Assembly: GCA_037893245.1 (NCBI GenBank)
Contig: JBAIAA010000441.1
Coordinates: forward strand, 1,860,001-1,924,000
DNA: 64,000 bases
Direction of reading: 5' to 3'
From: Crossaster papposus
Lineage: Eukaryota > Echinodermata > Asteroidea > Velatida > Solasteridae
Within the stretch, counting starts at the first letter, position 1; every line of letters begins with the position of its first letter. This document shows, piece by piece, positions 2,426 through 28,678 of this stretch. A model generated the notes under the pieces. That model did no database searches. It was given only the letters and a program-made list of their open reading frames with translations, and was not told the DNA's origin. The translations under genes and the position numbers were made by a program.

Positions 2426-2434
2426 CCGTAGTTC
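2426..2434 (-). CDS. 9-nt micro-exon cassette (ELR)
   Basis: On the minus strand the usual acceptor reads TTTCTTTACAT, so it lacks the AG. The first AG downstream is 15 nt further on, at the end of GGCTCATCACGCAAG. It leaves exactly 9 nt, GAACTACGG, before the GTAAGTG donor. Phase 0 gives E-L-R. Seven cassettes share this layout and their 9-nt cores all differ. Confidence 0.5.
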
Positions 2435-3695
2435 CTTGCGTGATGAGCCATGTAAAGAAACAAAACAGAAATGTTAGAAAAGCATTAATTGATAAATTTT
2501 AATAGTGTGTATTAAGGGAATACGAACCAAGAAAATGGCACAGGATTCAACACTTTGTCTTTATCTTACGTCTCAATAAATATATACTATTACAAAGTTT
2601 CAACGTTTTATTCTCGATATTTTTTCCTTTTCTCTGGACTTTTTTATAATTCCAATGACACAATTGTATGAAGAAGTTGAACCTGTAAAATCGCCCTCAA
2701 AAAAAACCCGCAAAACTCCGCCGTGTAATAAAATCACGAAAACATAAAGATTGAGTGAAGCAAGGCTTGGGGGAACAATAATACTCAGAAGTTTGGTTGT
2801 TTAAGGAAATTTGACTGGACTTGCTTTTCTTTGTAAATATGTATTTCTGGCTCGGGAGGTTAACTTCTTTCCTTTTTTCAAGTTACACTTTCTTCCTTTC
2901 GCTTGCAATCGGGTGATTTATGAGAGGAAGGGCCAGCCCATATTATCGTGAGTAAAAGGAACAAAATATCGGAAAAATCACATTGAGTTCGTTTTCAGCT
3001 CATTCAATTTCAATGGAAGGTAATGGAAAGTAAGTCATACGTAGCTGAACCTCTATGAGTAAAAACAAACTATCAAAAACAGGGAAAGAAACACTAGTTT
3101 TTAGTTACAAACAAGGCAGCTAGTCTGGTTTCCTGACAACATCATTCATCGTGTATTGATCATAATAGTATTACATAGTTGGTTCTATATTCACTCATAT
3201 CTGTATGCAACAAGAACTCAAACATGGCATGGCACAAAGTCGTTAACAAATTAAAGATCGTTCTGCCACTCTTCAGACTCTTTTTCCGGTAAATATGTTA
3301 GGTTTTTGTGCAGCATAAAAATGTTTCGGTTGAAACTTTAAAGCAGGTCGACAGTGAAATAATTACAATTCGTTTGTATGCATTCTATAATCGTTTTTTT
3401 GCAAGACGGGATCGATGAGTGTACTTGACATTTCTGTAACATTTATTAACCCTGTAGTTTAAAGTTTGAAGTTTGGTCTTGCACGACATTAAGTCAAAAG
3501 AAATAATACTGCAGCCCTGTAATTGACTTGAACAATGTAAGAGTTTATGGAACCAATGATTTTCAGGCAGAGTTAAACTAACTAAGAAAAATCGCATATA
3601 CACTGATGACAGTATATCGACCAGATATGGCAAAACCGTAAAATATACTTGAACTCTGAAGTTAAACAGTAAAGGCGAATCGAATTTACACTTAC

Positions 3696-3704
3696 CCGTA
3701 GACG
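3696..3704 (-). CDS. 9-nt micro-exon cassette (RLR)
   Basis: Same layout as the cassette at 2426: ACAT in place of the proximal acceptor, then GGCTCATCACGGAAG, then core CGTCTACGG, then GTAAGTG. Phase 0 reads R-L-R. It differs from the 2426 core only in its first three bases. Confidence 0.5.
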
Positions 3705-4189
3705 CTTCCGTGATGAGCCATGTAAAGAAACAAAACAGAAATGTTAGAAAAGCATTCATTGGTAAAGTGTAATAGTGTGTATTAAGAGAATACAAACCAA
3801 GAAAATAGCACAGGGTTCAACACTTTGTCTTCATCTTACGTCTCAATGAATATATTATTACAAAGTTTCAATGTTTTCTTCTGGACATTTCCTCCTTTCC
3901 TCTGGATTTTTCTTATTCCAATGACATAATTGTATAAAGACGTTCAACCTGTAAAATCGTCCTCCAAGAAAAACGCAAAACTCCGCCGTGTAATAAAATC
4001 ACGAAAACATAAAGATTGAGTGAAGCAAGGATTGGGGAACAGTAATACTCAGAAGTTTGGTTGTTTAAGGAAATTTGACTGGGCTTGTTTTTCTTTGTAA
4101 AGATATATTTCTGGCTCAGGAGGTTAACTTCTTACCTTTTTAAAGTTACACTTTCTTCCTTTCGCTTGCAATTGGGTGATTAATGATTG

Positions 4190-5350
4190 CTTCGGTTACA
4201 ACTTTAAAGCAGGTTTAAAACAGATGAGGGAATAATTATAGACAGAAAACTCCTAATCGCTCAGAGACATTGTGTGTAAACAGTCGTATCAAGATAATCT
4301 CGATCATTTTGACCCAGCGACATTCGTTGGATGTTGGTAGCATTTTCAGTCAGTCTGTGGTTGCTTTGAACCTCAGTAAAATAATCAATAAGAAGGGAAT
4401 GATCGATAAATGACAACGCAGACGAAAATATTATGTAGGCTCATTGTATTACAATGTATATTAGGGAGATCACAATTAGATAAATACGTATACGTACATA
4501 TCCGCGTAACACATAAGATTATCCGATTTGGTAAGCCCGATGTTCTTCGATTGTTCTTAGGACTTCCGAACAGGATTACGTTCCTAAACGGTATACATGT
4601 AGGAGTTGAGGGGATTTGCAATGTACTGAGACGACTTGCATACACTAATCGCCTGGAGGGCATTTGACCAAATTTTGAACGTCTGGTTTTAATTTGGCAT
4701 GAATTTCAGACTTTATAAAATCCAGACTCATTGGCATAGTATTGCGCATGACTAAGTGAAGATAATTAGAGAGTGACCGGTCACGTGAGAGGGTTTAACC
4801 TGATATTCATATGTCACCGGCATTATGAACTCACACGAGTGATAAACAAAGTGATTTGACTCCTTTTTGATTACCATAATGGCACAGGTTGTCTAATCTT
4901 AACCAACCCTGGCCAAACCATGAAAAATTGACTCTTTATGACAAATTCGACTATAAGATTAATGAACTACGTAGGTATGTATGCGGCAAAATGGAAAGCG
5001 ATCGATACTGACGAACAATAGCGCTAAACCACAAGGCAGCCAATCTACAAGGCATCATCAATCAGTATATTTATAAAATAACAAAACTGATTTCATACTA
5101 TTGTTGGTATTGCAAGGCAATCGTCTTAAAATGTTGTAAACATTTGGGATAAACTTGGTTTTTAACACATAAAATCACACACATGCGCTTAAGATGAAAA
5201 GTGAGAACGTGTCTTTTTTTGTGGGTAAACTGATAGTATGCTTAGGTATACACGCACATGCATATTAATCTCAACCTCTCTAATGACAGCATAAACTTAC
5301 AAACCCACTGCTTGATGACATTTTGTTTGGTTCGGCTTAAATTTGTTTTC
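4190..5350. repeat. Long intron repeat block L, copy 1
   Basis: This block recurs at about 6570-7470, 8480-8830 (partial), 25890-26440, 60890-62700 and 63480-64000. It carries the marks GACAACGCAGACGAAAATAT, GGTCACGTGAGAGGGTTTAA, ACCAACCCTGGCCAAACC and CAATAGCGCTAAACCACAAG. Around 4385-4667 both strands are open, as in other copies, with a 6-nt length difference between copies. I see no splice signals that would make it an exon. Confidence 0.7.
5301..5310 (-). pseudogene. Probable decayed cassette, not a multiple of three
   Basis: The block GACAGCATAAACTTAC, which precedes the cassettes at 7455, 27221 and 62677, is present with a GTAAGT donor on the minus strand. The nearest AGs leave 7 or 10 nt, neither divisible by three. 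A sister copy at about 8795 has the weaker donor GTAGGT. I read both as dead cassettes. Confidence 0.35.
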
Positions 5351-6032
5351 GGTAAAATGAATTAAGACTACATTTAAAGTGGAGATTCGCCAAAGGAAAT
5401 TTTGCATTTCCGCGAACTAACGTTTTCTGGCAGAGAGAATTGCTTCCACAATTTACAACTGCACCCTAAAAACAGATTGGTTGGAAATAACTAATTGATT
5501 GGTGGATATGTGTCCTACCAATATATTGGTTAATTTTAACCTAAATATTTGTTATTTTGAGCAATACTTTGTTAAAATGACCAATATCATTGCGGGGGTT
5601 GCAACGTGGCACAAAGTCGTTTAAAACAATGAAGACCGTTTTGCCACTCTTCAGACAATTTTTCCGGTAAATATGTTTCGGTTGAGAGTGAAGTAATTAC
5701 CATTCGTTTTAATGCATTCCATAATCGTTTTACAAGACAGGATCCATGAGTTTACTTGACATTTCGGTAACATTTATTAACACTGTAGTTTAAAGTGGGG
5801 TTTGGTCTTGCACGACATTAAGTCAGAAGATATAATATTGCAGCCCTGTAAATTGACTTTAACAATGTAAGAGTTTTTTATGGAACCAATGATTTTCAGG
5901 CAGAGTTAAACTAACGAAGAAGAATCGCATATAGACTGATGACAGTATATCGACAAGATATGGCAAAACCGTGAAATATACTTATATGAACTCCGAAGTT
6001 AAACAGTAAAGGCGAATCGAATTTACACTCAC

Positions 6033-6041
6033 CTCTTTAAT
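6033..6041 (-). CDS. 9-nt micro-exon cassette (IKE)
   Basis: ACAT replaces the proximal acceptor. GGCTCATCACGCAAG supplies the AG, the core is ATTAAAGAG and the donor is GTGAGTG. Phase 0 reads I-K-E. The flanking intron matches the other units closely. Confidence 0.5.
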
Positions 6042-7454: not shown

Positions 7455-7478
7455 CTTGTCAGTAAAATCCACTGACTT
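7455..7478 (-). CDS. 24-nt micro-exon cassette, second flank family (KSVDFTDK)
   Basis: Acceptor TTTCTTTGCAG and donor GTAAGTT on the minus strand enclose 24 nt reading KSVDFTDK in phase 0. The flanks (CATAAACTTAC on one side, TGCAAAGAAATGAAAGA on the other) differ from the main family and match the cassettes at 27221 and 62677. Two intron families therefore carry short symmetric exons. Confidence 0.5.
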
Positions 7479-9348: not shown

Positions 9349-9357
9349 CGCATAAAA
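9349..9357 (-). CDS. 9-nt micro-exon cassette (FYA)
   Basis: ACAT at the proximal acceptor, GGCTCATCACGCAAG as the shifted acceptor, core TTTTATGCG, donor GTAAGTG. Phase 0 reads F-Y-A, unlike any other core in the window. Confidence 0.5.
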
Positions 9358-10550: not shown

Positions 10551-10559
10551 CCCTTCAAT
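10551..10559 (-). CDS. 9-nt micro-exon cassette (IEG)
   Basis: Shifted acceptor GGCTCATCACGCAAG, core ATTGAAGGG, donor GTGAGTG. Phase 0 reads I-E-G. The donor variant GTGAGTG is shared with the cassette at 6033. Confidence 0.5.
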
Positions 10560-11636: not shown

Positions 11637-11645
11637 ATTAATACA
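11637..11645 (-). CDS. 9-nt micro-exon cassette (CIN)
   Basis: Shifted acceptor GGCTCACCACGCAAG (one change from the common form), core TGTATTAAT, donor GTAAGTG. Phase 0 reads C-I-N. This is the last cassette before the DIRS insertion. Confidence 0.5.
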
Positions 11646-12301: not shown

Positions 12302-13703
12302 CTATTGTGAGGGAGCTTTTCGGGCTTTGCGTGCTGCTGATCGTGCCGTTTCCTGGAGGACTTTTCTTCCCATAAGTCCCTCCGCTTGCACGACATCCTT
12401 CAAGTAGCAAGACGTGAAGGTGGATGGATTCTTCCAGCAGGCTGCTTTCATGATGTCTGAAAGAGGCACTCCAAGCAGATGAGCCCAAGATGATGACACG
12501 CTGCGTGTTTCGTGGGCTAGAGATTTTGATCGTCGGTTCTCGGCAGGATTATCAACTGCCTCAGAGATCCACCGAGCGATCGTGGTCACAGAGGCCGGAT
12601 GATGAGGTTGGATGGTTGTGATGAACAGCTGCTTGATGTCGCCTCTCAGAGGCCGAGTGCGAGCAATGTAGTATTTTAGGGCTCGTACGGGGCACCACCA
12701 CTTATCCTCTGCTGTAGAAGAGAATGATGTTAAGCTCGGCACAACAATGTCAGGAGGTGTGAAAGTGGCCGACTGATTTTTGGTAAGGAACTCTATATGT
12801 GGAATTAGGCGAACACCACCTAGCTGGTTCCCAGCGTATGTGCCCGGGTTCTATAGAAAGGGCATGAAGCTCACTTCTGCGGCGAGCTGTAGCAGCAGCC
12901 AGTAGGAATGCCGTTTTAATTGTCAGCTGTTGGAGGGAAGAGCTATTTGCTGGCTCAAATGGAGCTTTCGCAAGTGACAGGAGAACGGCACCCAGATCCC
13001 AAGATGGAATTAATTTTCTTCTGGGAGGTCGACTGTGAAACATACCACGCAACAAGTGCGCGATGGATGTGTTATTTGAGGTAGTTGAGCCATCCTGAAA
13101 GCCTTGATGAAGAACACCGATTGCTGATCTGTAACCTCGGATAGTCGAAATTTGAAGGCCCGAGTTAAAAAGATGGAGCAAGAAATCCACAATAGAAGCT
13201 AGAGATGCTGTATGGGAATCAATAGCTCTCTCCTTGCACCATTTGGTGAAGTGGAGAAGTCTGCTATCATAAGTTCTCCTTGTGGAAACTCGTCTGCTCT
13301 TGACTGCCAGGGCAGTAGCGTCCTCCGAAAGGCCAGCTGTTCTGAAGGAGACTTGGACAGCATCCAAGCACAAAGATGAAGAGTGGTTGGATCTGGGTGT
13401 AGGACTTGTAACCTCACTTGTGACAAAAGATCTGGTCGGTTGGAGAGCATGATAGGTGTATGAACAAGTAGGTCCAGGAGACGAGGAAACCATGGTTGTC
13501 GGGGCCAAAAGGGGGCTACGAGTATAATCTTGGAGAATTCTGTCTCGATCTTTGTCAGAACCCGTGGTAACAGGGAAATTGGAGGGAAGGCATAAGCGTG
13601 AATTCCCGTCCAGTCGAAGCTGAGGGCATCCACCTTCCACGCCATGGGGTGAGCATGACGAGCGCAGAATGTTGGGAGCTGCTTGTTCAGATGTGACGCA
13701 AAC
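12302..13703 (-). pseudogene. DIRS tyrosine recombinase (frameshifted)
   Basis: The coding sequence continues the RT/RNase H frame across the LTR insertion (VDLFASHLNKQLPTFC just inside 13703). It then shifts frame near 13370 and again near 12825. Recombinase features are visible: a helical N-terminal DNA-binding part with STRRTYDSRLLHF, an arginine in ARRRSELHAL, the HETR motif, a GVPLSDIMKAACW helix and the tyrosine in SCYLKDV. The stop is at 12302. This enzyme would integrate a circular DNA intermediate. The frameshifts make this copy inactive unless supplied in trans. Confidence 0.85.
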
Positions 13704-13708
13704 AGGTC
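13704..13708. other. Target-site duplication AGGTC, left
   Basis: AGGTC directly precedes the TG of the left LTR and is repeated at 21715-21719 after the CA of the right LTR. It is a clean 5-bp duplication in the DIRS recombinase frame. Confidence 0.9.
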
Positions 13709-13873
13709 TGTAGTATTCATTACATTGAATTTGTCACTTAGGGCGCTCCGTACTTACCTTGGAAGAATCTAGAATAAAGGCCAAAGGTCAGTCTAGTAAA
13801 AGTCACAACAGCCAGCAAACCGTGTGTGTCATACTCGATCTTATTCCCTAGTTTAGGCCCTTTAGATCTTACA
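13709..13873 (+). repeat. 5' LTR, 165 bp
   Basis: Starts TGTAGTATTC and ends ATCTTACA. The only difference from the 3' LTR that I can see is C versus A in TTTAGGC(C/A)CTTTAG. Confidence 0.92.
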
Positions 13874-14136
13874 ATTGGCGACGAGGACGGGATCAATCCC
13901 AACGTTTGGGAACCCAGCAACATCGTGAAGAGGTTTTTGACTAGCTATTTTGGATATAAACAGTGCGTTTTTCGCGTGGGAACTGTCGTCAAAACCAGAG
14001 TGAGTCAAACCACGCCAGTGTGCACGTAACGTACATGTTCTGTTGCATTGGTTTTGTATGCACATAAAACGCACCGAAATATTGTCGCCGAACAGTGTTT
14101 TTCGTCGTACATCATCGCCGAACTCTTGTGACCAAC

Positions 14137-15989
14137 ATGTCCGCCACAAACCTGCCATCCTTTCCAGCCTTCCAACCTCATGTAGAGCCCTCCACTACCG
14201 GCGTACGGTGGCGGAAATATGTTAACAGGCTGGAAAATCTGTTTGTCGCATTCAAAGTTACTGATGACACACAACAGCGTGCACTTCTCCTGCACTATGC
14301 CGGCCCTGAAGTCATGGACATTTTCGAAACATTATCTGAAACAGGTTTAACGTTTGAATCAGGCAAAGCGGCGCTCACCAAGTACTTCGAGCCCCGCAAG
14401 AACATTGAGTATGAGCGGTTCGTTTTTCGCGAGGCCAAGCAACTGCAGCATGAAACTGTCGCAGAATTTGCAACCCGTCTACAGCAGCTTGCCAAAACAT
14501 GCGAGTTCCACGAACGAGACGCAGAAGTGAAATCACAGATTATTCACGGTTGTACATCCTCAAAGTTGAGACGATACGCCCTCCGCGAATCTGAGTTAAC
14601 TCTGATCAAACTGCTAGCAACCGCTCGAGCTCATGAACTGTCAGAGGTGCAAGCCAAGGGTATGGAACAACACACATCATCGAGTCGTGACATGGCCAAC
14701 CGTATGACTGCTTCAAAGTCTCAACCCAGAGATTTTGAGTACAACAAGGCTTCACATGCCCCCAAGCCCAGAAGCTCAGTACCATGTCGTAACTGTGGAG
14801 GTATGTTTCCTCACAAGCAACAATGCCCAGCTCAAGGCGTGACATGCCACTCATGTGGTAAACTTAATCACTTCGCCAAGCACTGTCTGAGCGGAGGGAT
14901 GCCGCGCAAGCCACAGAACCTCAAAGCAAAAGTGCGGGCAGTTGACCATGCTGCAAGCTCAACGAGCTCCGACGATGATTATGTATTTGGAGTGTCGTCA
15001 ACACCCAAACCCAAACAGCCAATTGTCACAGTGACAGTTGACACAACCACGTCACTACCAGCAGTCATCGATACAGGAGCCTCGGTTAACGTGATGTGTC
15101 TTGCAGTGTACAACAAACTGCCATCTGCCCCACCCCTGTGTAGAGACTCTGCAGCAAAAGTGTTTGCATATGGCAGCATTACACCCTTGGACATTGTGGG
15201 CACTTTCGATACCACCGTTGCCTACAAAGCCTCACCAGTAAACGCCACCTTCTTCGTCACCAAAAGAACCGGAGACACATTGATCAGCTTCCAAACGGCC
15301 TCTGCTCTCAACGTCATCCAAGTGGCATTCACGCTCCAACCTGACAATCCTCAACCTGCCGACATGCACGAGCTCATCCACCAGTTCGCAGACCGTTTCA
15401 CCGGCATCGGCAAGTTGAAAAACATTCAGTGCAAGTTGCATGAGGACAAGACTGTTCAACCAATCGCTTTGCCTCATCGTCGTATTCCATTCCATGTCAG
15501 AAAAAAAGTCGAGAATGAACTGGAAAAACTGCTTCGCCTCGACATCATCGAGCCTGTACGCGATGAACCAACCCCGTGGGTTTCACCTATCCACGTGGTC
15601 GAAAAGCCCAAGCGACCAGGTGAAATTCGCATGTGTGTGGACAAGCGAAACGTTAACACAGCCATCAAGCGTGAACGCCACATCACACCAACCATCGATG
15701 ATATCCTGGCCCAGGTCAATGGGTCCACAGTCTTCAGCAAGATGGACTTAAACGCCGGATATCATCAAGTGGAATTGGCCCCCGAGTCCCGCCACCTGAC
15801 TGTGTTCTCAACACATACAGGCCTGTTCCGCTACAAACGCCTCAACTTCGGTGTTTGCTCTGCAGCTGAGTTCTTTCAGAACGCCATTTCCTCAGCACTT
15901 CGTGGCCTCGAAGGAACCCTGAACATCAGTGATGACATCTTGATATTTGGCCGTACTCAACAGGAACACGACAAGCGTCTTGCGGCCTG
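14137..15989 (+). CDS. Gypsy gag-pol, first part (gag, protease, reverse transcriptase N-terminal half)
   Basis: The start is taken at the ATG of MSATNLPSF; an upstream in-frame ATG at 14095 is also possible. Gag is followed by two zinc knuckles (CRNCGGMFPHKQQC and CHSCGKLNHFAKHC, about residues 218-252). The aspartic protease has its active site in AVIDTGASVNVM near residue 310. The reverse transcriptase then starts, with PWVSPIHVVEKP, FSKMDLNAGYHQ and the catalytic ISDDILIFG near residue 600. The frame is cut at the CTG duplicated by the inserted TIR element and continues at 19158 in the same frame. Read through into the insertion it would end early at 16038. Confidence 0.93.
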
Positions 15990-16125
15990 TAGTCTTGCAG
16001 CCATCGTCCATATTATGGATTCCGTGGGAAACGCGTGAACATTTAGTTTTGAACATTGAAACTTGATCTTTGGACTCTAATGAGTTGATCTAGATTTGGT
16101 GCCATTTTTTTGGGAACCGTTAACG

Positions 16126-16760
16126 CCTATTTTTATGCAAATTAGTTATGACGTCATAAAATCGACTGTTTCAGTCATTAAAAGACATATTTTACCATTA
16201 TCACACAAACAAAACATACTTTAAAGGCATTTGTAACATTAATGTTGTTGTTAAGATTTTATATTTTCTTATGTTAGGTGTATAAAGTATAACGCATGTT
16301 TTTCTTATGCATAAATTTACTTATTTTATGCAAATTAAGGATATTACATCAAATTAAATACCTCTGACGTGAAATAACATGTTGAATTGGCATGAAACAA
16401 ATGCCTTTTGATCACATTTAAAACATCGTACTTGTTTATTTTTTAATCTTGCTTAACATCTGATTATTAAATTGCATAATGTCCTTGTTTATGCAAATTA
16501 GGAATGACGGTGTGAAGTTAAATATTCAAAACATAAAGTGACATGTTTTGCAATTGGCAAACATAGAAATGCACTTTGAAAAATGTGAACTCTATTGTTC
16601 AACTGTAATTTTGTCTGAAGCTACGAGTGCAGAGTTTAATATGCATACATTGATTTGGAGATAGTAGTTGTTTATGCAAATTAGGAAGGATGTTAAACAA
16701 GACATAATATATGTTGACTGTTACATAATGAAACATTTTGCAATTTGCATAAAATGATTG
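16126..16760 (+). repeat. Left subterminal repeats of the TIR element
   Basis: The phrase TTTATGCAAATTA recurs four times at about 16134, 16325, 16488 and 16671, each followed by diverged AT-rich DNA. The first copy continues as TATGACGTCATAAA. The reverse complement of the same phrase, with the TGACGTCA palindrome, occurs in each right-hand tandem unit. Confidence 0.7.
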
Positions 16761-17907
16761 TGTTTATTGGGAAGCAGCGTAATCATACATGTTACTTACG
16801 TGTTTTTTTTAATTTTTAGAACGATTCTCGGTCACCAGGGAAGGACATTAACGTGAAGGACGTGTAATACTGGGTTTTGTGGAATTTTTTATTATTTTTC
16901 TGTGAGACTATTAGGGTTTTTTAAATTCTAATGGAGTGCTTTTGCAAGAAGGTATAGCACAGAGAAACCGGTTTATGCAGGCATACTTCAAGAAATGATC
17001 AGTATATATATATTTTTCTTTTTTTAATCAATTCTAGAGTTAGCTGCAGTGAATCAGAACTAATTCTATATGGGAAGGGGAGGGTGTTTATGGGAGTTGT
17101 CACAAGTCAGAACTTTTTCTCATCGTTTTCTTTATTTTTTTGGGAGATGCTGAAGCAGTTCTGCTGCGTGAAGTATCATTGGATTTTAGGTGTGTGGCTG
17201 GTCTACAGAGATAAGTCTGTATAATTTATGATGTGCTGGTATGCCAGCAGTGTGGTTGCGTAACTATCCTGCCCATGAGCGTAAATCTTAATTTTCGTTA
17301 TTTTTTTGAGACGCGGAAAAGGTTCTGTTGACAAGTATCATATGGATTGTATTTGTGACTGGTCTGCAGAGATAAATCTGTAATTGTACGTTAACTAGTG
17401 GGTATGCTAGAAAGTGGTTGTTTAACTGGTCTCTCCAGAGCGTAATTCTTAACTCTTTTTTTCCTTTTTGTGTAAGACACGCATCTGGGGGTCAGTTCTA
17501 GCCACATTATCTCTGCTAGATGACAGTCTGTGGTTGGAGTTCGTGGACGAGAAAATACATCAAACGTCTGCAGGCCAATTTGGTCAGACATTCCCTAAAA
17601 GCAGGAGTTTCAAACCCTGTCTCTGGTTTTGGCGACACGATGACTGGTTTGTGTATTGCAACAGTGGTCCCTTTGATTGATTATTACCGGTGATAATATG
17701 CCGTCCTCTCTTTTTTTCCCATTTTTGGAAGGGGAGCAGGGCATATTTTCTGTGCTATATCATGCACGTCATTAGTCACCATCTTATATAGTTCATTTTG
17801 CTTTCCTTGTTTTTATTTGTGTGTCGGTTTATATGACACGTGGCAAGGACAAATACCGGGGTTTTTTTTTTTTGGGGGGGGGGGTGTCTTGACTTATTTA
17901 TTTTGTT

Positions 17908-18456
17908 TTAGTCTTGAGATCCATTTCTTTGATCATTGTTTTGTTCTTCCAATAGTCCCAATAGAATTTGCAGATTTTTCTTATCAAGATTTTGTTCCTC
18001 TTGGTTGGATTGTGGAGATGCTTTAGTCCTAGATCGAACAAGTTCATCTTTTATGTTTTTGTGCCGTTTGTATGCCAGGATGGGTTGGGTATCAAATATC
18101 CTATTTAGATATTCGTTTTCGCTAATCAAGGGCCAGTGTTTAAGGATAGCCCGTTTGAGGGCTGGGTGCGCGACATGTGGGTAGTATGGTAGGACGAACA
18201 CCAGTGGGATATTTTTTTTTTCATGCTTAGGGTCCGCGGGAGTCTTGACCCTTTGAGAAAGGAGGGCTAGGTCTTCGTTTGTGTATCCGCGCTTTTGAAG
18301 TTTGTCTTTGAAGAATTTAACCCTCTCCTCAAAGTCTTTTAAATGGGTACATATATGTTTGTATCTGGTCACTTCGCCCTTGATTAATCCGCCAAATACC
18401 GAAATAGGGTGTGCTGAATCTCGAGCTAGGTACCAGAAAATGGCACCATGACTCAA
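17908..18456 (-). CDS. Penelope-like retroelement fragment (region after the RT palm)
   Basis: The 182-residue frame resembles the region after the RT palm in Penelope-like proteins: RYKHICTHLKDFEERV, KLQKRGYTNEDL, IPLVFVLPYYPH and ILAYKRHKNIKDELVRSR. No RT catalytic motif precedes it and no GIY-YIG nuclease follows; the tail is charged (EEQNLDKKN) and then stops. I read it as a captured or remnant fragment. Its 5' end runs into the 203-bp tandem array, so the true upstream boundary is unclear. Confidence 0.65.
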   Translation of the reverse strand: MSHGAIFWYLARDSAHPISVFGGLIKGEVTRYKHICTHLKDFEERVKFFKDKLQKRGYTNEDLALLSQRVKTPADPKHEKKNIPLVFVLPYYPHVAHPALKRAILKHWPLISENEYLNRIFDTQPILAYKRHKNIKDELVRSRTKASPQSNQEEQNLDKKNLQILLGLLEEQNNDQRNGSQD

Positions 18457-19120
18457 ATTTCATCTACGGCTATAAGCTTTGTATTCCTGCAAAGAAAACA
18501 ACATGTTCATGAATAGGGTTAGTATTTTACAGTCAAGATGTAGCGTGCAAAGATAATACATTGAAAACCCTATGTAAAATATAGCAATTTATGACGTCAT
18601 ACTTAATTTGCATAAAAGTACACTTATTAGTGCTCCGAAAAAATGGCACCATGACTCAAATTTCATCTACGGCTATAAGCTTTGTATTCCTGCAAAGAAA
18701 ACAACATGTTCATGAATAGGGTTAGTATTTTACAGTCGAGATGTTGCGTGCAAAGAGAATACATTGAAAACCCTATGTAAAATATAGCAATTTATGACGT
18801 CATACTTAATTTGCATAAAAGTACACTTATTAGTGCTCCGAAAAAATGGCACCATGACTCAAATTTCATCTACGGCTATAAGCTTTGTATTCCTGCAAAG
18901 AAAACAACATGTTCATGAATAGGGTTAGTATTTTAAAGTCAAGATGTAGCGTGCAAAGAGAATACATTGAAAACCCTATGTAAAATATAGCAATTTATGA
19001 CGTCATACTTAATTTGCAGAAAAGTACACTTATATGTGCTCCGAAAAAATGGCACCAAGACTCAAATAGTATCTATGGCTATAAGCTTTGTATTCCTGCA
19101 AAGAAAACAAAATGTTCATG
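18437..19120. repeat. 203-bp tandem array, about 3.4 copies
   Basis: The phrase ATGGCACCATGACTCAAAT returns at 203-bp spacing (about 18440, 18643, 18846, 19049). Each full unit contains TATGACGTCATACTTAATT and TTTGCATAAAAGTAC. The last unit is partial and meets the right inverted repeat. Confidence 0.9.
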
Positions 19121-19157
19121 AATTTCTCACGGGATGACAATGGCTGCAAGACTACTG

Positions 19158-21294
19158 TCTGCACCGCCTTCGTGAGTGTAACCTAACTCTGAACAGAGAC
19201 AAATGTAGCTTCAGCACAGCAAGTGTTGAGTACTTTGGACATGTGTTCGGCTCCCATGGCATCTCCCCCGACAAGAAGAAAGTTGATGCCATCCAAAATG
19301 TGCCTGACCCCACCAACGCAAGCGAAGTACGCAGCTTCCTTGGACTGGTAACGTATTGTAGTCGGTTCATCCCAGATCTTGCCACCATCTCCGCACCCTT
19401 GCGCGAGTTGACAAAGAAAGACGCCCTCTGGCATTGGGGACCAGAACACAAGCTAGCACTTCACCAGATCCGCGAACGCGTCGCACACTGCTGCACTATG
19501 GCATACTACGACCCCAACAAGAAAACTGAACTTCTTGTAGACGCCAGCCCAGTCGGTCTAGCCGGTATCCTTGCCCAACGCAACGATAAGGATGAACTGT
19601 TGATTGTTGCCCTTGCGAGTAGATCACTAACGCCTGTCGAACAGCGCTACTCCCAAACAGAACGAGAAGCACTGGCCATCACATGGGCAATACTTCATTT
19701 CCACCTCTATGACTATGGCAACAACTTCACCGTCGTCACAGACCATAAACCATTGGTCTCACTGTTCAACAACCAGCACAGTCAACCCCCAACCCGCATC
19801 GAACGATGGTTGCTCAAGTTGCAAGAGTACAATTTCACCGTCGAGTATCAGCCGGGCAAGTTCAACCCTGCAGACTATATGTCGCGACATCCCCACGAAC
19901 ATTCGCAAGCCACCAGCCGAGAACAGCGCCTAGCGGAAGAGCACATCAGCTTCATATCAGAGAACGCTGTACCCAAGTCAGTCACACTCGACACAATCCG
20001 CACTGCTACACGCGAAGATCAAGTTCTCCAGTCAGTCATCGAAGCACTCACCACTCAAAGCTGGGACATGCTTCTCAAGCAACCTCATGACCAACAGACT
20101 CTTGCCGCACTCAACAGCCTGAACAAAATTCGCGGTGAACTAACAGCCACCACTGATCGCGATCTGCTGCTTCGTGGAAACCGCATCGTAGTCCCACAAG
20201 CACTCGCACAAAAGATCATCGACATCGCCCATGAGGGACACCAGGGCATGACAAAAACTAAACAGCTGCTTCGCGAGAAGGTATGGTTTCCCAGCATGGA
20301 CACCCTCGTGGAACGAACGGTTCGCGACTGCCTACCTTGCCAACTGACAACGCCCGACGACCGAAGAACCCCTCTCAAGATGTCTCCCCTTCCAGTCAGC
20401 CCATGGTTGGAAGTTAGCGTCGACTTTTGTGACCTACCCACAGGAGAACATCTCCTCGTTGTCATCGACGACTACAGTCGTTTCCCTGAAATCGCGATAG
20501 TGTCATCCACCTCTGCACGTGCGGTGATTCCCAAACTTGATCAGATCTTCGCCACGTTCGGCATACCACAGATCGTCCGCACAGACAACGGACCGCCGTT
20601 TAACAGTGCAGAGTTTTCATCGTTCGCAGCTTACCTGGGGTTCCATCACCGTAAAATTACCCCACGATGGCCCCGTGCCAATAGGGAGGTGGAACGCTTC
20701 ATGAAAACAGTTAAAAAGACATATCGCACCGCAATCGCAGATGGAATACCGTGGAAGCAAGGCCTTTACAAGTTCTTGCGCAACTACCGTGCAACCCCAC
20801 ATGCCACAACAGGAGTAGCACCAGCCACACTCCTCTTCGGAAGGCCACTCCGCACTCGTCTCCCTGAAACTCCACAGAAATCTCTGGCCACAGCTGTACG
20901 ATCCCGTGACACACGCAAGAAGGCAGCCATGAAACAATATGCCGACAGCAAAGAACACGCTCGCCCCAGGGACGTCAACATCCGTGACACCGTCCTTGTG
21001 CGACGTGAAGGACTAGTCGCAAAACACCAAACCCCATATCACACGCAACCCTACAAAGTCACTGCTAAGAAGGGATCGATGGTAACAGCTCAAAACGGCT
21101 CCCACACAGTCACACGCGATATCTCGCGATTCAAACGCATCCGCACCCGAACACCATCCCGGAACGACTCTGAAGAGTCCGACATAGATGACACGCCCAC
21201 CACCACACAAATCCCAGCTCAAGCACCAGCACCCCGTAGGAACCCTCAGAGAGATCGTCGCCTACCTGTCCACCTCAAGGACTTTGCTTGTTAA
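19158..21294 (+). CDS. Gypsy pol, second part (RT C-terminal, RNase H, integrase)
   Basis: The frame resumes with LHRLRECNLTLNRDKC and YFGHVFG, typical of the Gypsy RT thumb. RNase H follows with VDASPVGLAGIL, REALAITWAI and TDHKPL. The integrase has the zinc-binding pattern in HEGHQGMTKTKQLL...CLPCQ (about 20229-20340) and the DDE residues in SVDFCDLP, RTDNGPPF and REVERFMK. It ends RNPQRDRRLPVHLKDFAC with no chromodomain. Codon use is GC-rich compared with the surrounding host DNA. No stop or frameshift is seen apart from the inserted element, consistent with a young copy. Confidence 0.93.
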
Positions 21295-21535
21295 AGACTG
21301 TAGAAGATATACCTGCTTGTTTCGTGTTATTGTGTTAGGAAGACCTGTATTCACAGCTTGTTTAAATTTAAAAGTTAAAATGGCTGATTTTAAAGAAAAC
21401 TGTTACCTGTATACTCAGAAATTTACCAAATTAGTGCACTTACACCAATGAGATTATATTTGTATCACTTTATTTGATCACCAGTTTTAAACCGGCAAAA
21501 CTCTATTTTCACAGTACATGTACATGTTTTTATCT

Positions 21536-21549
21536 AAGGTGGAAAGGGA
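21536..21549 (+). other. Polypurine tract of the Gypsy element
   Basis: AAGGTGGAAAGGGA lies directly before the TG of the 3' LTR, the usual site for plus-strand priming. Confidence 0.8.
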
Positions 21550-21714
21550 TGTAGTATTCATTACATTGAATTTGTCACTTAGGGCGCTCCGTACTTACCT
21601 TGGAAGAATCTAGAATAAAGGCCAAAGGTCAGTCTAGTAAAAGTCACAACAGCCAGCAAACCGTGTGTGTCATACTCGATCTTATTCCCTAGTTTAGGCA
21701 CTTTAGATCTTACA
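21550..21714 (+). repeat. 3' LTR, 165 bp
   Basis: Matches the 5' LTR except for one visible base and is followed directly by the AGGTC duplication at 21715-21719. Confidence 0.92.
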
Positions 21715-23100
21715 AGGTCCACATGTGGTCTTCCTAGGATATTGAAGATGTGGTTGACTACTGCCGGATGAAGAGACCATTCTGTTGGAGTAGCCCGCCC
21801 CCTGGAGAGAGCATCTGCGAGGATGTTCTTCTTTCCGGTCAGATGCGTAGCTTGAAGAGAGATTTGGCGTGGAATGCACCAACTGAGAAGCTCCCAAGTG
21901 GCTAGGCAAAGAGACGGAGAATGAGTTCCCCCCTGACGGTTGATGTAGGACACCACTGTAGTGTTGTCCGATTTGACCAGGACCAGCTTGTCTAGAACTC
22001 TGGGTTCGAGGGACTGTAGGGCCCTGAAAACTGCAAGTAGCTCCAAGTGGTTGATGTGTAAGTGGTTCTCTTTCATTGACCAAGTGCCGGCCACCGAAAG
22101 ATCTTCTAGATGGGCTCCCCATCCCAGAATCGAAGCATCTGTAGCGAGTATGGCTGAAGGAGAGGGTGTGGGAAAACCACTCCGTTTTGAAGATTGTCCG
22201 GAGATAGCCACCACAGGAGAAGGTCCTGGATTAGCCGAGTTACTGGAACCAAAATGGAGATAGGATCCTTGCGTGGCCGGTAGTGGTACAGGAGGTGAAG
22301 CTGCAAGGGACGCATGTGCATCCTGCACAACGGGACTAGGTCCACGAGGCTTGCCATGAGACCCAGCAAGCGAATCCAGGCCTTGGCCGGAAGATTCTGG
22401 GAGGACATGAAAATGTCGATACATACTCGTAGTGTTTGGCATCGCTCTTTGGTGGGCATAGCCCTGCCCGAAGTCAGATTCAGAATAGCCCCAAGGTAAG
22501 TGGGCTGTTGTGAAGGAGTCAGGAGGGATTTCTCTACATTGATTATAAACCCCAGATCTGTGACTAGTTGAACTGTCTGTATAAGTGCCCTCTCTGTTTC
22601 GCGATAAGTGGGACCCACTATGAGCCAATCGTCCAAGTACAGGAACAAATGAATCTGTCTTTGACGGAGAAAAGCTGCGACAACCTTGGTTATTCTGGAA
22701 AAGACCCGAGGGGCCGTCGAAAGACCAAAGGGAAGACAGCGGAACTGGTACGTGGTTTTCCTGATATATAAATTGGAGGAATTTCTGGTAATCTGCATGG
22801 ATTGGTACATGGAGATAGGCATCCTTCAGGTCGAGGGAAGTAGCCCACCAATTTCTCTTCAGAGACTGGAGGATGGTAGAGAGAGTTTCCATACGAAAAT
22901 GCTTTGGCCTGATGTAAGAGTTGAGAGGACGTAGGTTGAGGATGGGGCGCCACTCGCCCGATTTCTTTGGAGCGAAGAAAAAGGTTGATGTGATGCCGAG
23001 GGTGGATCCAGCAGGAGCTTGAATGATGGCATTCTTTTCTCCGAGAGAAAGGATTTCCTTCTCCAAGGCAGTCCGATGTGCAGGGTCTGTGGGAACAGGA
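21715..23100 (-). pseudogene. DIRS reverse transcriptase/RNase H (frameshifted)
   Basis: The minus strand carries KKSGEWRPILNLRPLN, SLDLKDAYLHVPI, FRCLPFGLSTAPRVF and the catalytic LFLYLDDWLIV. RNase H follows with LATDASILGWGAHLE, HINHLELLAV and VKSDNTTVVSYINRQ, ending IADALSRG-like and HVDL at the LTR insertion. The palm lies in a different frame from the parts before and after it, with single-base shifts near 22765 and 22160. The frame continues at 13703 beyond the nested element. Confidence 0.88.
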
Positions 23101-23274
23101 GTTGGTCGTCGGGGAGACTGTAAGGGAGGGTCGCTGGTGAACTCCAGACGGTATCCCACCGAAATAGTCTGAAGAACCCAGATGTCTGATGTTATAAGAA
23201 GCCACCTGTGGTTGAACTCTGCCAGACGACCACCTACTGGACCCAGAACCGGTGGAATTAAAACACTGTTGTGG

Positions 23275-25122
23275 TCAGAAGCCCTTGTTAACCCGCGACC
23301 CTCGGGGCTTGGAGGGTCGCACGAATCTGGAGAGCTGACGACGAGGGAACCGGTAAGCCGAAGAAGATGCAGAACCCCGGCTTCCAAAACGCCTAGGTTG
23401 AAAGGCCGATTTCTGGTCAAATAAGGCAGGTCTAGGTTTCTTCCAACTGGACTGGGTGGTGACATCGGTGGATGGACGTTTGGCCGAGCGTCGGCGAAGA
23501 TCCAATTTGTCTTCAGTTTTGAGACGTTTGGCTTCTTGCATCATGGCCTCATCAAACCTGTTGTCAAAAAGGTCGCTCCCACCCAGAGGAAGATCCAGCA
23601 AGCGTTCCCTGGAACCGACCGATGGAAGGAACAAGTTGTCCAAGACGAAAGAACGCCGCAGCAAGGAAGTAGCAGCAAAACCTAATGAAAACTCCCGAAG
23701 GCAAGCCCCCAGACAATCATCAAGGAAATGAAACATCTCTGGCAATTTACTAGCATCAATTAAGGAAGGATCATCATGGTATCTAGCTAGAGTGTCGGAC
23801 AACAGCATGGAAAAAGAAGCAACCCTAGCCCCATGACGCAAATGCTTGTCCAGGGCAGAAATACTCTTATCCAGAAGTTTGGTCTTGGAATCGAAAAACT
23901 GCGTACGGGATGTTGAATTTTCATGCCTGAGTAAGTCTTTGGCCTCAGAAGACAAGGTAGGGGTAGAAAAATACCTCTCTGAATCATGCTGATTAGTTTT
24001 AAACAAATTAGCCTGGCTACGTTGTATCTGCGGGAGAGATTGCTTCCGTTGAACCTGATCTAGGGACATATTCATGATATCGGCACACAAACTATCTACA
24101 GGAAATGTGGGTTGGTTAGCTTTGGATGAACCACCAGAATCTCTACGGTAAGAGGGTCGAGAGGGCTCTACTGGGGAAGCAGGGGGAAACTGCAGAAGCT
24201 TACCCACTTCATTCATGGTAAGAAAGGCTCGTTGAGCGATGGAGAGGTTATCCTCATCAACTGACTGAACAGAGGAAATGGAGAACTCTGAAGAAGATCT
24301 GGAACGGGTGTGTCGACTCCGATGTCCAGATTCATGCCTTGAGTGGTCATCAAAAGACCGATGATGAGCCCGGTGTCGATCTCTGGAGCCCGAACGGGAG
24401 CGTGAGCGCGAACGGGACCGTGAGCGGCCGCGGGTAACACGCCGCGATCTCCCGGTAGTGGAGTGGCCGCCATGATCGTCAGACCGATGTTGATCCCCGA
24501 GTCCAGTAGTGTCAATGAAAGGCACGCCGAAATCCCTCGAAGAATGCGAAGGATGTTCATAAGGGCGTGAAAAGCCCCCTGGAAAGGCCGAAGAAAAACC
24601 ACGCTGGTCGAACGTTGGAAAACTGCGTGGAAAGGAAGTGCCGTAGTCGAACTGACGATGGTCGTTCGGAAAATGTGACCACGCATGCGGTTGATCCGAG
24701 CGGTGGAGAAAATCTCTAGGCTCAGCCGTAAAACTGAGTTCGTGGCTGAAAGTCCGTGAAGACTGCGATGTGGGTGGTGCCCCAGGCCTCTGTGACCGGG
24801 CGCGGGGGCTGGTCGTACTGAGAGACTCAAAGGTATCTGACGCCATACAACCCCGCCGTCCCGCTGGCACATGTGGGTCGGTCTCCACTTCCGTCGCTTG
24901 CATGTGCTCCTGTAGGCTACCGAAGGTATGCGGGATTTCTCGGGGAACTGCAGTCGAGCCACGAGTGCTTGTCCCCGGAGGGTTTCCGACCGCCGAACCC
25001 GGGGGAGTAGGTTCAGTCGCTACGGTTGGAGTATCATGCTTGGATTGAGGAACGGAAGGTGATTTTCCTGATGAACGGCTTGAGATTACCACTTTCTTTC
25101 TTGTTTTGGCGACGTCCGCCAT
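23275..25122 (-). CDS. DIRS gag-like protein
   Basis: A 615-residue open frame starts MADVAKTRKKVVISS about 230 bp inside the right terminal repeat. The middle has an Arg-Ser run (RGRSRSRSRSRSRSGSRD). The C-terminal half is helical, with YHDDPSLIDASKLPEMF, and the end is basic. Position and composition fit the first frame of DIRS elements, which is thought to bind nucleic acid in the particle. It overlaps the start of the RT frame. No stop interrupts it, unlike RT and recombinase. Confidence 0.75.
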   Translation of the reverse strand: MADVAKTRKKVVISSRSSGKSPSVPQSKHDTPTVATEPTPPGSAVGNPPGTSTRGSTAVPREIPHTFGSLQEHMQATEVETDPHVPAGRRGCMASDTFESLSTTSPRARSQRPGAPPTSQSSRTFSHELSFTAEPRDFLHRSDQPHAWSHFPNDHRQFDYGTSFPRSFPTFDQRGFSSAFPGGFSRPYEHPSHSSRDFGVPFIDTTGLGDQHRSDDHGGHSTTGRSRRVTRGRSRSRSRSRSRSGSRDRHRAHHRSFDDHSRHESGHRSRHTRSRSSSEFSISSVQSVDEDNLSIAQRAFLTMNEVGKLLQFPPASPVEPSRPSYRRDSGGSSKANQPTFPVDSLCADIMNMSLDQVQRKQSLPQIQRSQANLFKTNQHDSERYFSTPTLSSEAKDLLRHENSTSRTQFFDSKTKLLDKSISALDKHLRHGARVASFSMLLSDTLARYHDDPSLIDASKLPEMFHFLDDCLGACLREFSLGFAATSLLRRSFVLDNLFLPSVGSRERLLDLPLGGSDLFDNRFDEAMMQEAKRLKTEDKLDLRRRSAKRPSTDVTTQSSWKKPRPALFDQKSAFQPRRFGSRGSASSSAYRFPRRQLSRFVRPSKPRGSRVNKGF

Positions 25123-25208
25123 TGCTCTTTATAATAACGTACACGTGTGTGTAATTCAATATGGTTTGACTAGCGAAGTGCACTGAACGCGTCGCTGAAA
25201 AAACTAGG

Positions 25209-25349: not shown

Positions 25350-25350
25350 G

Positions 25351-27220
25351 GACAGTGACATAATTACCTTTCGTTTTACTGCATTCTATAATCGTTCTAC
25401 AAGACAGGTTCCAGGGGTGTACTTGGCATCTTAAAAAGGCACCCGGAGGCTCCTAACATGTATTGACAATTTTATATCGTAGCAACTATGTAATTTCCTG
25501 ACGGGGAAATATTCTTCTAAATTTTGAAATTATGTACATGCCATAATTGGTGACAGTATATCGACCAGATGGGGCGAAACCGTGAAATAAACGTGAAACA
25601 AGGGGCGTGAAACAAGGGGTGGGAGAAGTAGCCTCGGATATTTGTGTTGAAAAAAAAATGTGACTGAACTTGCTGAAATATCAAATTTCTGGCTATAGGT
25701 AAATTACTTCTCTTTTTTAAAGTCATGTTTTCTTCCTTTCGGTTGCATGTGTGTGGTTTGTAAATGTAAAAATGTGTCTAGTGGCTGGAGATGAAATGCA
25801 ATTGTTCTATATAATATTATGGTATCTACAAGTATACTTCTTGGAAGGTTAAAACAACAAGTAGTAACCTATACATAACGAAAGTTTTTCACCGAGTCAT
25901 ATCAAGATAATCTCGATCATTTTGACCCAGCGACATTCGTTGGATGTTGTTGGTAGCATTTTCAATCAGTCGGTGGTTGCTTTGAACCTTTGTAAAATAA
26001 TCAATAAGAAGGGAATGATCGATAAATGACAACGCACACGAAAATATTAATTAGGCCCACTGTATTACAATGTATATTAAAGAGATCACATTTAAATAAA
26101 TACGTATACGTACATATCCACGTAATACATAAGATTATCCGATTTGATAAGCCCGATGTTCTTCGACTGTTCTCACCATTAGGACTCCCGAACAACATCA
26201 CGTTCCCAAACGGTACAGTGGTAGGAGTTGAGGGGATTTGCACTGTACTGAGACGATTTGCATATATTAATCGCTTGGAGGACATTGACCAATATTTGGA
26301 CGTCTGGTTTTAATTTGGCATGAATGTCAGACTTTATAAAATCCGGACTTATCGGTATAGTATTGCGCATGACTAAGTGAAGATAATAAGGAGAGTGACC
26401 GGTCACGAGAGGGTTTAACCTGATATTCATATGACATGTACATGTACAAAATGTAATTTAATTACCGAAGTTCGTCAATTGTGACGTCATCCGACCAGAA
26501 GTAATTTTTTGGATTACATGTATTAGAACGATTTTTTAAAAATTGTAATCCATTATTCAGTCTCAATTAACGATTGTCGGGACAAACCTTAGAAATGTGC
26601 ATAGTGTGGTTTTGCATTCAAAATGACATAGTAGTACAAAAAACAAACATAGGGGGGTACACGTACACAAGCATGCGGAGTTAGGAGGAGAACACAAACA
26701 ATGGATTAAGTGGAGCTGTTTGCAAAATCACACCATGCCCATTTCCATGTCATTATAATGTCGATCATTTTAACCCAGCGACATTCGTTGGATGATTGTG
26801 GGATTTTCACTCAGTCTGTGGTTACTTTGAATCCCAGTAAACTACCTTTGATACGCTCGCAATCAATAAAACGAACCTTATCATATTTATATCGTGTGTT
26901 GGTCATATTTATTATTAATTCTATTTCCTGTTATTTTGTGCAAAAGGAGCTCAAACGACAGACAACTCCTCATCGTAGTCACAAGCAATCTCGATCTTTG
27001 TGACACAACGATATATTCGTTGGATGTTTAAAGCTGGTTGAGAGTGAAATGTTGTCATTCTGTATATTTTTCAAGACAGCGTGAAGGGATGCGCTTGAAA
27101 GTCACTCAGAGGATCATCAAAACTAATGACGATGTTATATTCAACTGTCATTTACAGACAGAGCGAAATTCTATTGCATTCTGAAATAACAAGTCATTAA
27201 TAATGACGGCATAAACTTAC
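25351..27220. repeat. Intron repeat units without a cassette, and unassigned DNA
   Basis: 25351-26440 repeats blocks also seen at 8100-8480 and 63000-63730, including a third copy of block L at 25890-26440. From about 26441 to 27180 the sequence is mostly single-copy within this window and I recognise nothing in it. Confidence 0.55.
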
Positions 27221-27229
27221 TGACGACAG
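27221..27229 (-). CDS. 9-nt micro-exon cassette, second flank family (LSS)
   Basis: In this flank family the sister cassettes at 7455 and 62677 use a TTGCAG acceptor. Here that site reads TTGCAC. The next AG downstream leaves exactly 9 nt, CTGTCGTCA, before GTAAGTT. Phase 0 reads L-S-S. The same acceptor loss with a shift to 9 nt thus occurred in a second, unrelated intron context. Confidence 0.4.
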
Positions 27230-27926
27230 CTCAAATTGCAGGTGCAAGGAAATAAATGAGATGTGTGAGAAAACATCTTGGACCAAAATATACATTGTTT
27301 TTATCTGACGACCGAAACGATGTTGTAAATAATTGGGAGGTAACGTTCCACTAATAATACGAAAAATGTCGTATTCATATCGTGTATTGGTCATAATAGT
27401 ATTACATATTTAGTTCTATATTCACTCATATCTGTATGCAACAAGAACTCAAACATGGCATGGCACAAAGTCGTTAACAAATGAAGATCGTTCTGCCACT
27501 CTTCAGACTCTTTTTCCCCGGTAAAAATGTTCGGTTTTTTTGCAGCATGGAAACGATTCGGTTGCAACTGTAAAGCAGGTTGACAGTGAAGTAATTACCA
27601 TTCGTGTTTATGCATTCTATAATAGTTTTACAAGACAGGATCCATGAGTGTACTTGACATGTCGGTAACATTTATTAACAATGTAGTTTAAAGTGAAGTT
27701 TGGTCTTGCATGCCATTAAGTCAAAAGATATAATATTGCAGCCCTGCAATTGACTTAAACAATGTAAGAGTTTATATAAAACCAATGATTTTCAGGCAGA
27801 GTTAAACTAACGAAGAAATATCGCATATACACGGATGACAGTATATCATCCAGATATGGCAAAACCGTGAAATATACTTATAAACTCCGAAGTTAAACAG
27901 CGAAGGCGAATCGAATGTACACTTAC

Positions 27927-27950
27927 CGGTGGCCCCGCATCTGCTGAGCC
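27927..27950 (-). CDS. 24-nt micro-exon cassette (GSADAGPP)
   Basis: Acceptor TTTCTTTACAG, 24 nt, donor GTAAGTG on the minus strand. It reads GSADAGPP in phase 0 and is the close sister of the cassette at 465. Confidence 0.55.
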
Positions 27951-28669
27951 CTGTAAAGAAACAAAAGAGATTTTAGAAAAAAATTAATTGAACATGTTTA
28001 ATTGTGTGTATAATGGAAATAAACACCACAAAAATGGCACAGGATTGAACACTTTGTATTCATCTTTCGTCTTCAATTGATACTGATTAAAACAGATGAG
28101 GAAATAATTAAAGACAGAAAACTTCCTAATCGCCAGAGACATTATGTGTAAACAGTCGTATCAAGATCATCGCGATCATTTTGACCCAGCGACATTCGTT
28201 GGATGTTAGTGGGAGTTTCACTCAGTCTGTGGTTGCTTTGAACCTCAGTAAAATAATGTAAAATCGCCTTCCAAGTAAAACGCAAAACTCCGCTGTGTAA
28301 TAAAATCACGAAAACAGAAAGATTGAGTGAAGCAAGGCTTGGGGAAACAGTAATAGGCCTACTCATTTTAAAACATTTTGTATACAATTTCAACAACATT
28401 TTGGTAAAATTGAATAACACTATAGTTTAAAGTGGAGTTTGGTCTTGCAAGACATTAAGTCAAAAAATATAATATTGCAGCCCTGCAATAGTGACTTCAA
28501 CACTGTAAGAGTTTATTTGGAACCAATGATTTTCAGGCAGATTTAAACTAACGAAGAAAAATCGCATATACACTGATGACAGTATATCGACCAGATATGG
28601 CAAAACCGTAAAATATACTTATATGAACTCTGAAGTTAAACAGTAAAGGCGAATCGAATTTACACTTAC

Positions 28670-28678
28670 CCGTCGTTT
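28670..28678 (-). CDS. 9-nt micro-exon cassette (KRR)
   Basis: ACAT at the proximal acceptor, shifted acceptor GGCTCATCACGCAAG, core AAACGACGG, donor GTAAGTG. Phase 0 reads K-R-R. In the transcription direction this is the first cassette after the NACHT remnant. Confidence 0.5.

Follow-up and report, generated by a model that had tools for sequence, protein, structure and literature searches.

Schistosome micro-exon genes (MEGs) are defined by runs of symmetric exons whose lengths are multiples of 3 nucleotides (nt), mostly below 36 nt; these micro-exons stand in tandem and are subject to alternative splicing, and MEG proteins are secreted and carry a signal peptide. Dscam, an immune-related gene, holds arrays of long, mutually exclusive alternative exons, one of which enters each transcript, and the UNC5 netrin receptors combine an Ig and TSP1 ectodomain with a transmembrane helix. 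We know of no such micro-exon array in a gene encoding ZU5 and Death domains. Here we describe a 64,000-nt stretch of the starfish Crossaster papposus, hereafter the window (contig C441, positions 1860001-1924000, of a 1.02-Gb assembly from which all genome-wide counts are taken), which carries parts of two ZU5-Death genes, each with a phase-0 micro-exon array upstream. We consider it likely that seven 9-nt segments in one of these arrays are translated micro-exons under diversifying selection, in which the edge of variability follows a shifted splice acceptor.

Schistosome MEGs are described as micro-exon-based genes that evolve fast (PMC4350168), the bicycle genes of gall aphids as having an odd gene structure under strong selection (PMC9168663), and snake venom three-finger toxins as undergoing accelerated exchange of exon segments, a rapid coding change within a duplicated family (PMC2474615). 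Autocleavage is placed at SF/S in CARD8 and NLRP1 and at HF/S in PIDD, and UNC5B Leu-677 is equated with the autocleavage Phe of CARD8 (PMC3210808); the CARD8 N-terminus is portrayed as a disordered, fast-evolving protease 'tripwire' (PMC10249858). Among the open-access titles and abstract openings listed in literature searches, none reports arrays of micro-exons in a starfish or in immune genes of the ZU5/Death type.

A previous sequence-only reading of the window had described seven minus-strand cassettes, and 9-nt cores were located at all seven places:

2426..2434, minus strand: predicted 9-nt micro-exon C, ELR; its prefix (2435-2451) holds the lost acceptor (ttacAT) and the new AG
3696..3704, minus strand: predicted 9-nt micro-exon D, RLR
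6033..6041, minus strand: predicted 9-nt micro-exon E, IKE
9349..9357, minus strand: predicted 9-nt micro-exon F, FYA
10551..10559, minus strand: predicted 9-nt micro-exon G, IEG
11637..11645, minus strand: predicted 9-nt micro-exon H, CIN
28670..28678, minus strand: predicted 9-nt micro-exon J, KRR

The 15-nt prefix upstream of the core occurs in exactly 7 copies in the window at <=3 mismatches, against an average of 1.02 and a maximum of 4 in 100 shuffles. As that reading had said, the donor GT(A/G)AGTG is common to all seven cassettes, all nine core columns vary, and the 15 nt upstream of the core hold two changes in total over the seven copies (12 of 315 pairwise sites differ, ~4%). Pairwise difference within the core is 0.635 over seven copies and 0.570 over six, compared with 0.107 over 226 MAFFT-aligned columns of the upstream intron (six copies, cassette H being omitted because its upstream intron is unalignable) and, on the donor side, 0.052 over the first 51 columns free of gaps (seven copies). 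When nine upstream columns were drawn at random 100,000 times, no draw reached the minimum number of changes required by the core. The core is about six times as diverged as the upstream intron, and the earlier observation is confirmed; the accompanying description of the introns as near-invariant holds for ~60 nt around the core and fails farther upstream, where the introns differ by ~13%.

The seven copies form one class of a larger family, whose 21- and 24-nt members share the arrays with them. All seven 9-nt copies read ttacAT in place of the acceptor ttacAG of the other micro-exons, and the first AG downstream lies in CGCAAG (CGGAAG in one copy), leaving 9 nt; relatives of the class with an intact AG are the 24-nt exons SSSRKVRT and SLSRKVRT. 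The change would have run from ttacAG to ttacAT. Our first genome-wide list of the class demanded an exact 15-nt prefix, which makes the prefix invariant there by construction, and its invariance is therefore taken from the window and contiguous DNA. Across 18 copies of the class in such DNA (the window, L010 and 200 kb of C536), diversity is 0.015 (1.5%) in the 15 nt and 0.593 (59%) in the core, so that variability begins at the new AG, in agreement with the shifted acceptor proposed earlier.

The reading frame of the cores provides further evidence. The phase 0 assigned to the micro-exons follows from their neighbours, since the 83-nt exon upstream has a phase-0 end and the 55-nt exon downstream a phase-0 start. 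At <=3 mismatches the 9-nt class was found at 114 places genome-wide, and its reversed-pattern control at 0; among the 100 of these 114 places listed there are 71 distinct cores encoding 70 tripeptides. These cores contain stops in 0 of 213 phase-0 codons, compared with 10/142 and 30/142 in the other frames, and 5000 letter shuffles averaged 17.7 stops and never fell below 5. When the four listed copies with AG still in place at the old acceptor are omitted, the 68 remaining cores give 0/204 against 10/136 and 30/136. The 21-nt pattern was found at 108 places (reversed-pattern control, 10), 91 of the 100 listed lying inside the cluster of related genes; the 51 distinct 21-mers in the cluster encode 50 peptides and have stops in 0/357 phase-0 codons versus 8/306 and 0/306 in the other frames, a weaker contrast than that of the 9-nt class, with shuffles that average 7.2 stops and can reach 0. 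It is thus likely, though not certain, that these 9-nt segments are true micro-exons, translated and symmetric (phase 0-0); their inclusion in messenger RNA (mRNA) is inferred. An alternative with a start codon (ATGGCTCAT...), open in all seven copies by eye, was rejected because the exon would then end in a phase that does not fit the 55-nt exon and because stops are avoided in phase 0.

A scan of both window strands for 6-63-nt exons (multiples of 3, strong splice sites) gave eight hits, all of them open micro-exons of these arrays, 21 or 24 nt long, on the minus strand, which is the strand of the gene. Sorted by intron flank, 115 donors in fetched DNA comprise 56 of the 9-nt class, 43 canonical exons, 9 of a second 9-nt class and 7 damaged or unclear copies; many of the fetched loci were picked for holding 9-nt copies, and the 9-nt share is inflated accordingly. 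The canonical exons, duplicates included, measure 21 nt (25), 24 nt (16), 27 nt (1) and 18 nt (1), and none contains a phase-0 stop. The second 9-nt class, with the prefix CATGTCTTATTCGGCAA(A)G, shows the same ttacAT arrangement and hypervariable cores in L010, L033 and C536 (for example at 267045, 263794, 259193, 176933 and 133605), and its nine copies differ by 0.571 in the core versus 0.088 and 0.067 in the flanks.

Divergence is also structured by codon position. Diversity at positions 1, 2 and 3 is 0.719, 0.692 and 0.411 in the 71 cores of the 9-nt class; 0.560, 0.533 and 0.224 in the 51 distinct 21-mers, one of whose third positions is invariant and whose third positions are this low in 366 of 200,000 within-codon relabellings; and 0.59, 0.48 and 0.25 over the whole of the 24-nt exons. 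Within the window, the 21-nt exons B, K and N (positions below) have a nonsynonymous difference (pN) of 0.589 and a synonymous difference (pS) of 0.028 with introns at 0.094, and the 9-mers have 0.755 and 0.281 with introns at 0.076; these intron values, like the pair analysis below, come from local alignments and may understate flank divergence, for which the MAFFT columns upstream give the 0.107 quoted above. The ZU5 exon of three genes, by comparison, shows purifying selection (pN/pS 0.24-0.33), and its pS of 0.05-0.10 is close to the intron values, so the baseline of divergence is ordinary. Together, the lack of phase-0 stops, the excess of change at positions 1 and 2 over 3, the codon pattern in the 21- and 24-nt exons, the repeated core-flank contrast in the second 9-nt class and the constraint on ZU5 support the diversifying selection that the sequence-only reading had suggested.

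Neutral variation in dead exons is invited by the AT that replaces the acceptor AG of other micro-exons in 7/7 copies. A core six times as diverged as the upstream intron, 71 cores free of phase-0 stops, a donor retained in 7/7 and the second class with the same arrangement all run counter to this account, which we regard as highly improbable. Splicing might alternatively use the AT as a non-canonical acceptor and add GSSRKxxx instead of xxx, which would leave the phase unchanged and would match the 24-nt length of the intact-AG relatives. However, the shifted AG is the first AG after the pyrimidine tract, and the 15 nt that would then be exonic are nearly invariant (0.015), unlike the true 24-nt exons with their 0.59/0.48/0.25; we assign this idea almost no probability. 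Reassortment offers a different view of the same contrast, in which old cores were shuffled among cassettes while gene conversion homogenised the introns, making these look young, and present selection is weak. Recombination between cassettes is indeed common, since the nearest neighbour by upstream flank is also that by downstream flank in only 21/42 cassettes, and the same core GATGCAAAC sits in flanks ~5% different (C536, C591). Conversion, however, would carry the core along with the flanks, codon-phased divergence and 70 peptides from 71 cores require selection at some time, and the match between ZU5 synonymous divergence and intron divergence means that the introns are not unusually young. 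We judge reassortment improbable, and recombination between cassettes probably feeds diversification.

The other process that the sequence-only reading had raised is targeted germline diversification, whether by local hypermutation or by replacement of the core from a template, which would make the variation with no need for selection on amino acids. It draws support from 484 older cassette pairs whose flanks differ by 8.7% and cores by 60%, from pairs with ~4% flank difference that differ at 7-8 of 9 core sites, and from third codon positions that exceed the intron rate in the 9-nt class. A mutator is nevertheless disfavoured because near-identical copies should already differ, yet in the 12 closest pairs (flanks <2.5% different, 48/6260; not all independent) only 1 of 108 core sites has changed, and synonymously. 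A phase-blind mutator, moreover, would neither avoid phase-0 stops (0/213 versus 30/142) nor spare third positions, and the boundary of variability follows the splice site. We consider targeted diversification very unlikely. The pair analysis takes in 53 copies, one of which keeps AG at the old acceptor (C536:185141). In seven putative allelic pairs between C536 and C591, five cores are identical, one has a synonymous change and one an amino-acid change; two of the seven, with flanks 5-9% different, may not be alleles.

Several observations weigh against the reading that the micro-exons are translated and diversify under selection. An exon as short as 9 nt is difficult to splice, the cassette copies are non-independent owing to duplication and recombination, and no increase in core rate is seen among recent copies. 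In the 9-nt class, third positions (0.41-0.44) lie above the intron rate of 0.087, so that selection may explain only part of the variation. Pooled pN/pS over distinct exons is 2.51 (21 nt), 1.66 (24 nt) and 1.80 (9 nt), values reached by 7, 6 and 7 of 300 column-permuted controls, respectively. The codon-position pattern gives 1/27 in the 9-nt class, the lowest possible value, and falls short of significance both in the second 9-nt class (29,668/200,000) and in the window's three 24-mers alone (864/6561). Rapid change is not unique to the micro-exons, because the UPA-region exon (54046-54177) and the Death exon (50116-50371) also have pN/pS of ~0.9-2.5 between paralogues. Lastly, no recognisable micro-exon array was found in the models of six Patiria miniata homologues (P0001-P0006).

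Under diversifying selection on translated micro-exons, arrays of 9-, 18-, 21-, 24- and 27-nt exons would lie directly N-terminal of a ZU5-UPA-like-Death part in a clustered gene family, and would grow by duplication of ~1-kb cassettes (exon plus intron flanks) and of larger blocks, with recombination between them. Selection would then swap amino acids in the micro-exons, against a background of slow change in the introns and the ZU5 exon. For the 9-nt class, the ttacAG to ttacAT change would have let the first downstream AG take over as acceptor, turning the first 15 former exon nt into intron and limiting diversification to the last three codons. More speculatively, and by analogy with CARD8, the peptides could make up a variable linker, probably disordered, that contacts proteins of pathogens as bait or as a protease 'tripwire'; a ZU5 that may cleave itself (HF/T) would couple this linker to signalling by the Death domain. 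A further extension, which we hold to be doubtful, is a germline modular bait system in which each ZU5-Death sensor would splice many 3-, 7- and 8-residue peptides, constitutively or in combinations, into the linker before a self-cleaving ZU5, such that one gene would present many targets for pathogen proteases or effectors and the family hundreds.

The remaining predicted exons of the two genes are as follows:

465..488, minus strand: micro-exon A, 24 nt, GSADAGPS
1206..1226, minus strand: micro-exon B, 21 nt, TQTLSAS
7455..7478, minus strand: 24-nt micro-exon of a second intron family, KSVDFTDK
27927..27950, minus strand: micro-exon I, 24 nt, GSADAGPP
30315..30397, minus strand: predicted 83-nt exon upstream of the left array, GIPAPI...SSSDDDD; ends taken from the splice scan, low acceptor score (2.3)
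31645..31752, minus strand: predicted 108-nt repeat exon, phase 1-1
32822..32929, minus strand: predicted 108-nt repeat exon, phase 1-1, second copy
33594..33636, minus strand: predicted first coding exon of the left gene, MDEQEAQPTPSAAT
50116..50371, minus strand: Death-domain exon of the right gene (Pfam Death)
50821..51109, minus strand: 289-nt exon kept in the P. miniata homologues
52734..52913, minus strand: 180-nt exon kept in the P. miniata homologues
54046..54177, minus strand: 132-nt exon, part of the UPA-like region
55173..55825, minus strand: ZU5 exon of the right gene, with KHFT at 55314-55325
56520..56574, minus strand: 55-nt exon joining array to ZU5, phase 0 in, phase 1 out
57636..57656, minus strand: micro-exon K, 21 nt, APDRTAP
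58901..58924, minus strand: micro-exon L, 24 nt, RRRSRKSP
60405..60425, minus strand: micro-exon N, 21 nt, PTHSLPP
62677..62697, minus strand: 21-nt micro-exon of the second intron family, MSLDESR

At its left edge the window matches (80%) the sequence immediately upstream of the right gene's 55-nt exon, and a second ZU5 gene was therefore predicted just outside it. The next 10 kb to the left indeed hold a paralogous 55-nt exon, a ZU5 exon and later exons; the seven 9-nt cassettes therefore belong to the array of this second, left gene, whose predicted 5' end lies inside the window and whose ZU5 exon lies beyond the left edge. Its predicted start reads MDEQ..., and no homologue of its N-terminus was found among 524 candidates. 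The phase-0 end of the 83-nt exon is at GAT|GTAAGTAAC; 3/3 genes looked at have this donor. Between the N-terminal donor and the array lies a partial NACHT segment (47 bits, 29676-30224, minus strand) that ends in a poly-G/C tract and has an in-frame stop just before it. Two more NACHT copies occupy the same place in the gene unit on C536 with stops or frameshifts. NACHT is therefore not taken as part of the gene and is read as an intronic relic, probably of an NLR module.

The ZU5/Death assignment made in the sequence-only reading is secure by Pfam scores, with ZU5 at 72.4 bits (cut-off 21) and Death at 50.6 bits on the exon alone (cut-off 22.6), the latter supplying a C-terminal death-fold domain. 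UPA stays below its cut-off of 27 bits in the window protein (20.0) and in P0001 (19.5), P0004 (26.6) and P0006 (21.4). When the protein assembled from minus-strand exons (ZU5 to Death) was compared with database sequences, 7988 candidates were scored and six matched at E<=1e-5, all from P. miniata, with up to 62% identity. KHFT is present in 3/3 ZU5 exons compared and in P0001-P0005, with KHFN in P0006, and the Phe of KHFT aligns with UNC5B Leu-677 in the alignment of P0001 with UNC5B, which is also the best match to P0001 among solved structures (3g5b); KHFT of the window thereby falls on the autocleavage position of PIDD, CARD8 and NLRP1. A structure prediction for P0002 (six sequences; mean pLDDT 37) was not used. 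In P0005 (P. miniata LOC119735171), residues ~25-215, N-terminal of ZU5, show by eye ~19-residue repeats (IELSAIGPKDASQ...), maybe another repeated-exon array at the same position.

The family is large and clustered. The donor flank was found at 345 places genome-wide (control 1), the 100 listed lying on C315, C441 and C536. At least 26 close ZU5 exons, a lower bound from 64 of 335 candidates scored, all lie on C315, C441, C536 and C591, with 73-78% identity to P0001 and an internal stop in one, and the places listed for the 9-nt class and the donor flank (100 each) fall only on these four contigs, which may include both haplotypes. In one gene on C536, 45 micro-exons are predicted over 100 kb, one of them doubtful (KTN, 192875); they would amount to 293 residues if all were included. 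For the N-terminal part of P0001, membrane-spanning to judge from its sequence, tblastn at E<=1 gave no match in the window, and 7 places elsewhere in the cluster match it; some family genes may thus encode proteins that span the membrane, with the variable segment immediately on its inner side.

Other elements were noted in and around the arrays. A retroelement that we take to be DIRS-like (12302-13733 and 21579-25128, minus strand; phage-integrase-type N-terminal domain, reverse transcriptase and an RNase H match below cut-off) interrupts the left array. Within it sits a Ty3/gypsy-type retrotransposon (13709-21700, plus strand; reverse transcriptase, RNase H, integrase and a gag match below cut-off), itself broken at about 16.0-19.1 kb by an AT-rich stretch that contains a 203-bp tandem repeat. 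Degenerate copies of the second intron family recur at 5300 and 8794 (minus strand) and at several L010 and C536 places; they end in TGGGTTT|GTAAG or GTAGG, have no usable acceptor and are apparently a dead exon that has spread. Long palindromes at 53399-53875 and 46244-46507 (inverted self-match identity 83% and 75%) are possibly small inverted-repeat transposons.

If the exons are expressed, this locus would encode an innate-immune protein diversified in the germline by multiplying and editing 3-8-residue peptides at the level of the exon, and the splice site would determine which part is open to diversification. The core-flank and codon-position contrasts are strong enough to predict RNA isoforms, and the system bears on how invertebrates without V(D)J-type receptors keep up with pathogens.

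Comparison with the systems introduced above places the locus among several of them. It shares with MEGs the runs of small symmetric exons (43 canonical exons of 18-27 nt plus the 9-nt classes), but the array at this locus makes up a single segment of a ZU5-Death gene, and the contrast in rate was measured exon by exon against flanking introns. Bicycle genes are putative plant-gall effectors of insects and, to our knowledge, have no ZU5-Death context. Three-finger toxins likewise have fast-changing coding segments in a duplicated gene family; these are segments of ordinary exons, and micro-exon arrays are not known from them. Dscam resembles the locus as an exon array in an immune-related gene and differs in the greater length of its exons. 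The UNC5 receptors appear to differ at the N-terminus, given the predicted MDEQ... start of the left gene and a window without a match to P0001's membrane-spanning part, though no search for Ig or TSP1 was made. With PIDD, CARD8 and NLRP1 the proteins share a variable N-terminus followed by ZU5 and a death fold, here with a UPA-like region between the two; they differ in having Thr for Ser (Asn in P0006), Death for CARD, a UPA below the Pfam cut-off, an N-terminus apparently made of micro-exons, and a self-cleavage that is putative. If the linker is a protease target, the 'tripwire' principle of CARD8 and NLRP1 would extend to another animal phylum.

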